The notes under the pieces are model-generated. The model was given only the letters and a program-made list of their open reading frames with translations. It was not told where the DNA came from and did no database searches. Shown in pieces: positions 12,319 through 14,600 of a DNA stretch of 40,923 nt. Numbering within the stretch: position 1 is the stretch's first letter; the number at the start of each line of letters is the position of its first letter. The position numbers were made by a program, and so were the translations under genes. Where the stretch lies: positions 1 to 40,923 of the forward strand of contig DXAL01000004.1 of NCBI GenBank assembly GCA_019117125.1. Direction: 5' to 3'. The DNA is from Candidatus Mediterraneibacter merdipullorum (GTDB lineage Bacteria > Bacillota > Clostridia > Lachnospirales > Lachnospiraceae).

Positions 12319-12475
12319 CAGTTCAGCCCATCTGTCGCCGGGAGGCGGATTTATGCTTGCATAAGAATCCGGTGACCGGCTGGCAGATGTACGGAGCGCC
12401 CGCATATGAGCAAAGAAGCGGCGGATGCCGCAGTGAGCACGCAGTGCGTCTTTGCGAATGGCGCGGGCTGAACTG
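12319..12475. repeat. Structured repeat element, copy A (complete)
   Basis: 157-bp element bounded by the inverted repeat CAGTTCAGCCC (12319-12329) / GGGCTGAACTG (12465-12475). Inside are a hairpin CATCTG.../CAGATG (12329-12389) capped by TTATG-CTTG-CATAA, and a second arm GCAAAGA (12410-12416) / TCTTTGC (12449-12455) enclosed by GCGCC/GGCGC and carrying two small hairpins. Copies B, C and D share this layout. It lies just past the 3' end of the second ftsW-like gene. Short reading frames across it are not supported as genes. Confidence 0.85.
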
Positions 12476-12481
12476 GATACA

Positions 12482-12629
12482 CAGCCCATGACTGCATGCG
12501 GAAGCACAGGACCATGCTTGTATGGTCCTGCGGACGCATGCGGTCATGGAGGGAGCGCCCGTATATGAGCAAAGAAGCGGCGGACGCCGCAGTGAGCACG
12601 CAGTGCGTCTTTGCGAATGGCGCGGGCTG
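12482..12629. repeat. Structured repeat element, copy B, with a partial repeat start to 12659
   Basis: Tandem with copy A at a 159-bp period; 12393-12500 and 12552-12659 are nearly identical (2 differences in 108 bp). The outer stem is CAGCCC (12482-12487) / GGGCTG (12624-12629). The variable hairpin differs completely in sequence from copy A, yet still pairs: CATGACTGCATGCG (12487-12500) with CGCATGCGGTCATG (12533-12546), and CAGGACCATG/TATGGTCCTG around the same CTTG loop. The second arm is GCAAAGA/TCTTTGC. A further partial unit (CAGCCCATGACTGCATGCG) follows and ends against the ftsW-like stop codon. Confidence 0.82.
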
Positions 12630-12659
12630 AACTGGATACACAGCCCATGACTGCATGCG

Positions 12660-14069
12660 CTATGTATTTTCCAGCCGGATGCGCCGGGAAATCCCGAGCG
12701 CCACTCCCATCTCCGCCAGCAGGAACACCACTGCCGTGCCTCCATAGCTGATGAACGGGAGCGTGATGCCCGTCGTCGGGAGCAGTCCCGTCACCACAGC
12801 GATGTTCAGAACGACCTGCAGCGCGATGTGGGCAAATATCCCTGTCGCGATAAGCGAACCGTACAGGTCCGGCGCATTTCGCGCGATGAACATCAGCCGG
12901 TACAAAAGCACTCCGAACAGGATCAGGATCAGAAGTGCGCCGAACACTCCCAGCTCCTCGCATATCACCACCAGTATCATATCGTTCTGCGCCTCGGGAA
13001 TCACCCCCAGCTTCTGGGTGCTGTTCCCGAGCCCTTTTCCGAAGAACCCGCCGCTTCCGATGGCGTAAAGTCCCTGCATGACCTGATAGCTGCCCGTATC
13101 CGCCGTCGCCTCCGGATTCAGCCACGAGATGATTCTCTGAAGGCGGAAATTATCGCTGTTTGCGATTGTCACTGACAGGACCGCAATGAGGACTACAGCC
13201 GCTGCCGCCGCCACGGCAAGAAATATCAGGAACGGCTTGAGCTTCGGATGGATGACAAAGAACAGGATGCAGGTGATTGCCATGACGATGATGGCAGTAC
13301 TCAGGTTGTCCGTCAGGATGAGGACGCCGCCTGCTGCCGCCGCGCCAAATGCAAACACCCGGATAAATCCCTCCGTCGTGTAGGCTTTCTTCCCGAGCCG
13401 GCACAGTTCATAAGAGATAAAAAGTATCACCGCGATCTTGGTAATCTCCGCCGGCTGCAGCGTCATATTTCCCGGAAGTCTGATCCACCGCCGCGCGCCG
13501 TTCAGCGTTTTTCCCAGAGGCGTCCGCACAAGCGCCATCGCCACCATGGCGACCGCATAGATTTCAACAGCGAAAGCACCGTAGATATGGTAATCAATCC
13601 TGGATACGATAAACATCACCACAAAACCACCCGCACCGATCAGCGCCTGGCGGAAGAAATAATACAGGTCGTTCCCGAACTCCACATCCGCCTCATAGGA
13701 ACTGGTGCTGTACAGCATCACAAGTCCGAAACACATCAGGAAAATGACAACGAGAAGCAGCTCATAATCAAAATATCTCTCTCCTGCAGCGCTCCTTGCC
13801 GACGGGCTCTTTGCCGCAGAACGCTTTGTCCGGGGAGCAGGCTGCGCCTGTATCGTCCGGCGCCGCTGCTCCACATTTCTCTTATATCCGGCATAGCCGC
13901 TCCTCCACCCGACCGTGCGCATCGGCTGGGTATCTCCGGAGGCCGGGCCGCCTAAGCGTGTCCCCGCCGGGCGGATGGGCTGGGTGTCACCCAGATATGC
14001 CCGGTTCTTTCCGGACTTTTTCTTATTCTGTTCTTTCTGTCTGACCGGTCTTACGATCCTGCTTTTCAT
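12660..14069 (-). CDS. Second SEDS-family glycosyltransferase (FtsW/RodA/SpoVE type)
   Basis: Lipid II polymerase of the SEDS family, paralogous to the dcw ftsW. The 469 residues begin with about 100 residues of basic cytoplasmic sequence containing two GDTQPxR motifs (GDTQPIR near 28, GDTQPMR near 46). Ten or so membrane segments follow, with LYSTSSYEADV, LNGARRWIRLP, LTDNLSTAIIV, the loop with WLNPEATADTGSYQ, GLGNSTQKLGVIPEAQNDMI and PFISYGGTA. The DTGSYQ segment holds the expected acidic residue of the large loop. It stands alone, flanked by structured repeats and tRNA-Pro, with no PBP next to it. It could be RodA, FtsW or SpoVE; the loop resembles FtsW most. Confidence 0.9.
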   Translation of the reverse strand: MKSRIVRPVRQKEQNKKKSGKNRAYLGDTQPIRPAGTRLGGPASGDTQPMRTVGWRSGYAGYKRNVEQRRRTIQAQPAPRTKRSAAKSPSARSAAGERYFDYELLLVVIFLMCFGLVMLYSTSSYEADVEFGNDLYYFFRQALIGAGGFVVMFIVSRIDYHIYGAFAVEIYAVAMVAMALVRTPLGKTLNGARRWIRLPGNMTLQPAEITKIAVILFISYELCRLGKKAYTTEGFIRVFAFGAAAAGGVLILTDNLSTAIIVMAITCILFFVIHPKLKPFLIFLAVAAAAAVVLIAVLSVTIANSDNFRLQRIISWLNPEATADTGSYQVMQGLYAIGSGGFFGKGLGNSTQKLGVIPEAQNDMILVVICEELGVFGALLILILFGVLLYRLMFIARNAPDLYGSLIATGIFAHIALQVVLNIAVVTGLLPTTGITLPFISYGGTAVVFLLAEMGVALGISRRIRLENT

Positions 14070-14207
14070 ATCACTATCACTTTCCCACTGCCCGAATCGG
14101 CACCGTTTTTTCCTGTTATAACAGATAAGGAACCAGTCTCGGTAAATCTGTCTACCTGCTCTGATCCCTCATATTGCATTCATATCCGGAACAAATATTT
14201 TCATACA

Positions 14208-14282
14208 TCGGGGTGACAGGATTTGAACCTGCGACCTCACGGCCCCCAGCCGTGCGCTCTAACCAAACTGAGCCACACCCCG
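14208..14282 (-). tRNA. tRNA-Pro (anticodon GGG)
   Basis: A full cloverleaf reads on the minus strand. The acceptor stem is CGGGGTG/CACCCCG, the D arm GCTC/GAGC, the anticodon stem CACGG/CCGTG with loop CTGGGGG (anticodon GGG), and the T arm GCAGG/CCTGT with loop TTCAAAT. The discriminator base is A, and CCA is not encoded. It is preceded by a strong promoter and lies between the ftsW-like gene and structured repeat copy C. Confidence 0.97.
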
Positions 14283-14293
14283 CCGACTAATAC

Positions 14294-14322
14294 ATTATAT
14301 ATAATTTATATCCAAATGTAAA
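14294..14322 (-). promoter_or_regulatory. Promoter of tRNA-Pro
   Basis: -35 TTTACA (14317-14322) and a consensus -10 TATAAT (14294-14299) on the minus strand are separated by 17 bp. The tRNA 5' end lies 11 bp after the -10 box. This is a near-ideal sigma-A promoter. Confidence 0.85.
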
Positions 14323-14331
14323 GATTTTTTT

Positions 14332-14492
14332 CATCCAGTTCAGCCATCTGTCATTGTACGACGGATTTATGCTTGCATAAGAATCCGGAGGGCAATGGCA
14401 GATGAGGGAGCGCCCGTCTGTGAGCAAAGGAGCGGCGGACGCCGCAATAAGCACGCAGTGCGCCTTTGCGAATGGCGCGGGCTGAACGGATG
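14332..14492. repeat. Structured repeat element, copy C (complete)
   Basis: 161-bp copy with outer stem CATCC-A-GTTCAGCC (14332-14345) / GGCTGAAC-GGATG (14480-14492). The variable hairpin is CATCTGTCATTG (14345-14356) / CAATGGCAGATG (14393-14404), with the same ATGCTTGCAT tip as copy A. The second arm is GCAAAGG (14424-14430) / CCTTTGC (14463-14469). The last pair is G-C here but A-T in copies A and B, a compensatory change. It begins next to the tRNA-Pro promoter. Confidence 0.85.
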
Positions 14493-14497
14493 TATCT

Positions 14498-14600
14498 CAG
14501 CCATCTGTCATTGTACGACGGATTTATGCTTGCATAAGAATCCGGAGGGCAATGACAGATGAGGGAGCGCCCGTCTATGAGCAAAGGAGCGGCGGACGTC
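14498..14600. repeat. Structured repeat element, copy D (truncated)
   Basis: Repeats copy C at a 157-bp period with about 2 differences in its first 97 bp. The variable hairpin is perfect here: CATCTGTCATTG (14502-14513) / CAATGACAGATG (14550-14561). The sequence diverges from copy C at about 14600, within the second arm, so the 3' half and outer stem are missing. The break lies just before the candidate cotJ promoter. Confidence 0.8.

Follow-up and report, generated by a model that had tools for sequence, protein, structure and literature searches.

Introduction

Several described elements resemble the repeat analyzed here. Correia/NEMIS, RUP, BOX and QMITE2 are short, mostly intergenic, non-autonomous repeats with stem-loop transcripts, according to the accessible part of PMC10969869. 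In the ISBst12 group of the IS66 insertion sequences (IS), ISDge4 is described in the available portion of PMC12898284 as having the ends GTGACTACTCAGCA and GTAACTGCTCAGCA, a single open reading frame (ORF) and an 8-bp repeat. In a table of a 2010 paper, Clostridiales-1 (Rfam RF01699) is classified as a probable RNA that is unlikely to be cis-regulatory. In the accessible text of the open-access literature searched, no statement that Clostridiales-1 is mobile was found. The DNA studied here is a stretch of 40,923 nucleotides (the window; contig DXAL01000004.1, assembly GCA_019117125.1) of Candidatus Mediterraneibacter merdipullorum, which carries four copies (A–D) of a folded repeat of approximately 164 bp, one of them truncated, in two tandem arrays. 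The repeat is very probably a non-coding miniature inverted-repeat transposable element (MITE) of gut bacteria that uses a transposase of the ISBst12-like type in trans, keeps its interior fold and is kin to Clostridiales-1.

Results

Target Duplications and Empty Sites

Intact copies of the family have terminal inverted repeats, starting with GTAACAGTTCAGCC and finishing with GGCTGAACTGTTAC. The copies were gathered partly by a right-end pattern and partly by the best scores with R1, a covariance model built from 22 copies, and neither set is random. A target-site duplication (TSD) was scored when the flanks agreed in at least 7 of 8 bases in one register, with shuffled pairings over a grid of offsets as the control. 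In the first set of 89 copies (71 distinct sites, 20 with a TSD), 22 copies had an 8-bp TSD, compared with at most four in the shuffles. The second set overlaps the first in part; its 80 copies represent 62 distinct sites, 22 of them with a TSD, the shuffles again reaching no more than four. Twenty-eight of these 80 copies share a site with the first set, five of them with identical flanks, and the pooled total was 113 distinct sites. TSDs were present at 36 of them, 26 being perfect, and the maximum in 500 shuffles was 4. Where both ends were intact, the fraction rose to 16/27 sites, with 14 perfect duplications.

Comparison with relatives of the window's genome added empty sites. The A/B array is flanked by the minus-strand genes degV and ftsW, the aligned pieces of which are separated by 444 bases in the window vs. 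98–198 in 28 relatives (29 were fetched, both genes being aligned in 28). In the alignments, the C/D array is absent from four relatives and A/B from the five relatives shown; an R1 scan of the stretches fetched from 10 of these relatives (L227–L236) found no copy. An initial annotation of this DNA, made from the letters alone, had suspected a mobile element as one of two options. That suspicion was borne out and can be made specific: the repeat is a MITE, its ends are of the IS66 type, its TSDs are 8 bp long and its mobility is well supported. REP and BIME sequences are palindromes mobilized by RAYT, a Y1 transposase, and produce no target duplication. Judged on that criterion, the presence of TSDs speaks against a REP/BIME identity.

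A Likely Transposase Partner

The likely kind of transposase source for the MITE is the transposon found at positions 149–1968 of locus L310 (genome G017, a relative in the same genus). It is 1,820 bp long, has the ends GTAACAGTTCAGCCTTCC/GTAACAGTTCACCCTTCC and the TSD CGAAAAAA (8/8), and contains a single ORF of 485 amino acids in which the DDE_Tnp_IS66 domain (PF03050) scored 75.5 bits and the NCBI IS66 model 145.6 bits (the cut-off being 180). Among the 30 loci with an IS66 domain that were scanned, a near-perfect pair of MITE-type ends occurred in L310 alone. A MITE copy lies within positions 1–148 of the same locus, a few bases away from the transposon.

Plasmid records with a match to the L310 transposase numbered 74, and three were examined: ISGka4 from a Geobacillus plasmid, annotated as IS66-like (ends GTAACTATTCAGCC/GTATCTATTCAGCC), a copy on an Anoxybacillus plasmid (GTAACTATTCAGCC/GTATCCATTCAGCC) and one on a Candidatus Chlorohelix plasmid (GTAACAAATCAGCC/GTAACAGTTCAGAC). 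In each of the three, the ends are of the GTAAC/GTATC form and the 8-bp TSD is perfect (8/8). ISGka4, whose record says IS66-like, would by its features be a member of the ISBst12 group. Because L310, the three plasmid relatives and ISDge4 carry like ends and 8-bp TSDs, the MITE ends fit an ISBst12-like transposase. The repeat itself spans only about 164 bp, and its own genome has no PF03050 match; this makes it a MITE rather than an IS. Viral contigs gave no match to the L310 transposase. At L308, L309, L321 and L327–L330, in four other genomes of the genus, a related group of IS66-type elements has GTTACTGTTCA-type ends.

Copies in the Window

The initial annotation had placed four copies in two tandem pairs and had given each an outer stem, a first hairpin capped by CUUG and a second arm with two small hairpins. 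The copies, including the truncated D, were located as claimed and the architecture was the same. The features on the window are:

12317..12477, plus strand: copy A, full-length element, with left end AACAGTTCAGCC and a decayed right end GGCTGAACTGGA; R1 score 173.6 bits
12321..12328, plus strand: copy A, outer stem and terminal inverted repeat, 5' side GTTCAGCC
12396..12464, plus strand: copy A, second arm GCGCC...GGCGC with an AUGAG/CGAAU internal loop (tandem G-A) and two small hairpins
12466..12473, plus strand: copy A, outer stem and terminal inverted repeat, 3' side GGCTGAAC
12480..12637, plus strand: copy B, tandem copy that has the right arm of A but another first hairpin and lacks an intact left end; R1 match at 12480–12631, 118.4 bits
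12638..12659, plus strand: start only of a third tandem unit, a repeat of 12479–12500
14334..14491, plus strand: copy C, full-length element; R1 score 157.8 bits, RF01699 score 22.9 bits (cut-off 48)
14492..14600, plus strand: copy D, truncated, keeping the first hairpin and only the beginning of the second arm; RF01699 score 17.3 bits

A and B form a tandem duplication of approximately 159 bp, and the junction is seen again at about 12628–12659. The first hairpin of copy B is wholly different, as had been stated, with the refinement that the 5' part of this copy also lacks the GTTCAG end. Besides the 21-base start of the next unit, this hairpin matched elsewhere only in G000:C41, at 74% (any match in 1/58 genomes). 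Copy D is 98% identical to copy C over 102 nt and fell below the cut-offs of two covariance-model searches that recovered A, B and C. The C/D array is located between tRNA-Pro (minus strand) and cotJA/cotJB/manganese-catalase-like genes (plus strand). Against 100 dinucleotide shuffles, the fold stability z was −6.3 for A, −5.3 for B, −5.6 for C and −4.0 for D. ORFs called mechanically overlap the window copies.

Conservation of the Fold

Covariation exceeded chance. In the 22-copy alignment, double (compensatory) changes were present in 22/53 pairs, and among 95 distinct copies in 36/53 pairs, with 649 covarying cells vs. 165 in shuffles. None of 500 shuffles reached the observed covariation on any of five measures in either alignment; this control leaves shared ancestry in, and the 95-copy alignment was fitted to the model, which favors the model. 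When the partners were slid, the covarying cells fell to 66–112. Details of the initial annotation also proved to be family traits. The exchange of A-T for G-C in the inner arm pair is real (A-U in 49 and G-C in 43 of the 95 copies), and the CUUG loop is kept at C 100%, U 89%, U 71% and G 100% of the alignment rows with a letter. The unpaired G-A/G-A positions of the second arm are conserved at no less than 97% per column.

The two strands are not equivalent. The pair 12335/12383 of copy A is indeed T-G (U-G) on the plus strand, and read on this strand the 95 copies contain G-U vs. A-C in 101 vs. 43 cells and in 26 vs. 8 pairs. The 74 further copies gave 84 vs. 32 cells and 24 vs. 13 pairs, the seven sequences common to the two alignments (A2 and A3) having been removed from A3 for both counts. 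In 39 nearest-neighbor contrasts, changes between Watson–Crick and G-U pairs numbered 49 and those involving A-C 24. In the outer stem, which is the transposon end, G-U and A-C were equal (5 vs. 5).

Relation to Clostridiales-1

At Rfam gathering thresholds, only a tRNA was found in the window; weaker matches to lncRNA, miRNA and viral families were taken as chance. RF01699 scored 17–23 bits with copies A, C and D, below threshold, and gave 18 matches in 17 of 20 other loci of the MITE family, the best at 36.1 bits (E 7e-5). Conversely, R1 recovered 20/20 Clostridiales-1 copies of the complete genome G028 at the right place and on the right strand (E from 3e-7 to 0.0095, rough values). The description of the family as undescribed is thus wrong in part, the core being a sub-threshold relative of RF01699. 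The window's genome has one RF01699 copy above the cut-off (133.4 bits). RF01699 itself is dispersed: it matched in 42/58 genomes at E ≤ 0.01, some of the weak matches probably being the MITE family itself, and exceeded the cut-off in 26/58 genomes.

G028 has at least 40 Clostridiales-1 copies (the best 40 of 152 candidates). Twenty of them are elements of 193–196 bp with the ends GATGCCAGGGTCAAAAG/CTTTTGACCCCGACATC and 7-bp TSDs, exact in 11/20 and agreeing in at least 6/7 bases in 16/20 (shuffle maxima 4 and 6). The Clostridiales-1 "RNA" therefore also looks like a MITE, that is, a transposable element, at least in G028. Its transposon partner, sought in G028 by paired ends, was not seen among the matches listed. 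Partial Clostridiales-1 copies were noted in G000 at L052 (1501–1594) and L053 (1501–1673), one without the middle arm and one with the third arm only, as if the element were modular.

Orientation and the Basis of the Conserved Structure

The orientation set comprised 80 and 62 copies, the latter left after excluding seven of 69 earlier context entries (L127, L129, L135, L141, L148 and the two window arrays); removal of 31 repeats of a site left 111 sites. Both neighbors were called at 105 of them, five sites being at edges and one overlapping a called gene. Genes were called by home-made codon scoring. Calls based on the longest ORFs were set aside, as they placed a spurious gene opposite degV; the two ways of calling agree in direction, the 5'-side gene pointing away at 45/66 sites with longest-ORF calling and at 51/63 with codon-scored calling. 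The plus strand was antisense to both neighbors at 53 of the 105 sites and sense to both at 18, with 33 sites between divergent genes and one between convergent genes.

By local GC skew, the plus strand lay opposite the leading strand at 87/111 sites, and at 74/97 where the skew exceeded 0.08. The window has a skew of −0.12, and copies A–D therefore conform to the bias. In divergent gaps, judged on stretches of 10–20 kb, the plus strand opposed the leading strand at 17/19 sites by GC skew and 16/19 by coding majority, which weakens a cause acting by transcription only. In G028, where the replication frame is given by dnaA at 1.1 kb and a skew of +0.17/−0.18, Clostridiales-1 was against the leading strand in 32/40 copies and in 8/9 of those in divergent gaps. 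Sites with a TSD showed the bias at 27 vs. 11 and those without at 60 vs. 13 (Fisher p 0.23). As it is already seen in the TSD-bearing sites, the bias was present early, and selective loss is not supported. Replication-linked orientation via the beta clamp is reported for Tn7, IS200/IS605 and other IS in the accessible part of PMC5371812. The bias found here may be set by transposases or by the fold.

These data bear on what the fold is selected for. That it serves as single-stranded DNA in replication or transposition, and not as RNA, is a real though lesser possibility: the orientation of both families tracks replication, and the plus strand folds more stably with DNA parameters as well (75/80). 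Given the greater stability of the plus strand as DNA, the lagging-strand template carries the weaker of the two folds in the usual orientation. IS66-type DDE transposases probably work on ends that are double-stranded, which counts against this explanation, as does the bias in TSD-bearing copies, which is not significantly weaker than in the others. Selection on a plus-strand RNA, favored by the initial annotation, stands only in part. Covariation and the plus-strand preference for G-U are there; RNA rather than DNA is left unsettled by the equal counts in the outer stem, by the excess of antisense over sense positions next to co-directional genes (53 vs. 18) and by an orientation that follows replication even between divergent genes.

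A mutational origin of the compensatory changes, by template switching in imperfect hairpins and with no selection on structure, is unlikely. In the 22 copies, 18 of the 24 pairs of the long first hairpin do carry such changes, a concentration that palindrome correction would give, and the hairpin of copy B was exchanged as a block. Nevertheless, a strand-symmetric process does not predict an excess of G-U over A-C of about 2:1 or more, and the short hairpins of the second arm covary too, with double changes in 7/9 pairs of helices 7 and 8. A free-standing family of structured RNA genes, merely multicopy and spread by duplication rather than transposition, would account for the strong covariation, the G-U preference and the unpaired G-A/G-A motif, and is very improbable in view of 8-bp TSDs in exact register, empty sites, the transposon L310 with the same ends and the 7-bp TSDs of Clostridiales-1 in G028.

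Distribution of the Family

A DNA search gave 22 matches in the window's own genome and matches in 28/61 genomes, all of the same genus (28/37); there were none in 24 genomes from other families of the order. With R1, the family was found in 49/58 Mediterraneibacter genomes at E ≤ 0.001, the richest holding at least 49 copies (up to the best 51 candidates were scored per genome). The surveyed genomes are mostly drafts. The restriction to one genus that the DNA search had suggested was dropped, as the right-end pattern matched at least 118 stretches, including records labelled Claveliimonas, Blautia, Roseburia, Acetatifactor and others. In Claveliimonas bilis, one copy was found (best 150 of 889 candidates), adjoining a Tn916-type integrase gene.

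The insertion at L116 (7290–7450) adjoins a Tn916-type integrase gene and a small DUF6462 ORF, these genes having been searched in L116, and has same-flank copies at L013, L091, L098, L127 and L279, in several genomes, among them that of Claveliimonas bilis. An integrative element seems to carry the MITE from genus to genus. One further insertion site is shared by L086, L100, L158, L277 and L287 and another by L090 and L095, about 37 and 30 bases before genes. We take these genes, named by eye, to encode a LacI-type regulator and a glycosidase-like protein, and the insertions ahead of them are possible domesticated leaders. A plasmid search found no carriage of the element, and the exact right-end pattern was absent from viral contigs. 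Whole or partial copies were seen in five unannotated fecal "Bacteriophage sp." contigs (MT837746, MT836949, MT839594, MT836794 and MT838565), one of which covers at least 80% of the query; these contigs may be bacterial fragments.

Discussion

The observations fit a scheme in which an ISBst12-like transposase would recognize the MITE ends and insert copies into AT-rich intergenic DNA. Insertion at or after the replication fork would leave the plus strand mostly opposite the leading strand. Action as a single strand might then be the reason why the plus strand stays foldable, which is the weakest step; this single strand would be slightly likelier RNA than DNA, given the tandem G-A loop, the CUUG cap and the tolerance of G-U.

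Several results weigh against this interpretation. A close partner transposase occurs in 1/58 genomes (any match to it in 7/58), and no IS66 transposase domain (PF03050) turned up in the window's genome, which is 94% complete; mobilization there has therefore ended, or the assembly lacks the gene. L310 and the MITE have only the terminal ~14 bp in common, in an alignment read by eye, which does not demonstrate descent of the MITE from L310. No TSD at the 7/8 level was found at 77/113 sites. The check for flanking duplications that the initial annotation had proposed was positive for the family and negative for the window copies, which keep no recognizable TSD (3/8 flank bases match in A; C was compared by eye). 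The strand preference is only about 2:1. Most plus strands are not transcribed together with the 5'-side gene, which makes an RNA carried within host mRNAs less likely, and the transposase alone could be the source of the orientation bias. Finally, the RF01699 matches to the MITE family all lie under the Rfam cut-off of 48 bits, and 3/20 loci (L289, L292 and L294) had no match at E ≤ 1.

If the preferred reading, a MITE akin to Clostridiales-1 and served by an ISBst12-like transposase, is right, a catalogued RNA of unknown function is recast, at least in one genome, as a transposable element, and a second, related family is supplied. Strong covariation is then possible in a mobile repeat, which calls for caution in covariation-based RNA discovery. 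The orientation bias makes it testable whether a nucleic-acid fold or a transposase sets insertion polarity at the fork. As a speculation that we regard with some doubt, a portable structured RNA (or single-strand) module might reside in two or more MITE families that differ in ends and TSD length and spread in the manner of SINEs, as their bacterial counterpart; what is conserved would then be the folded module rather than the transposon end, and the module would dictate orientation to the fork.

Among known systems, the family shares with the ISBst12 group GTAA-type ends and the 8-bp TSD, and differs from it in having no transposase and an unrelated, folded interior. It is as short, mostly intergenic and non-autonomous as Correia/NEMIS, RUP, BOX and QMITE2, whose ends and hosts are different. 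The closest likeness in structure is to Clostridiales-1, with a GCC/GGC closing stem, a first hairpin with a UGCUUGCA-like cap and the AUGAGCA...UGCGAAU arm; both families are dispersed, TSD-flanked and biased to the same orientation. Clostridiales-1 has a third arm (GGAUUGCGGGAGUG...) which, in alignments read by eye, the MITE family lacks, and it has ends of the GATGCCAGGGTCAAAAG type with 7-bp TSDs, whereas the MITE family has GTAACAGTTCAGCC/GGCTGAACTGTTAC and 8-bp TSDs.

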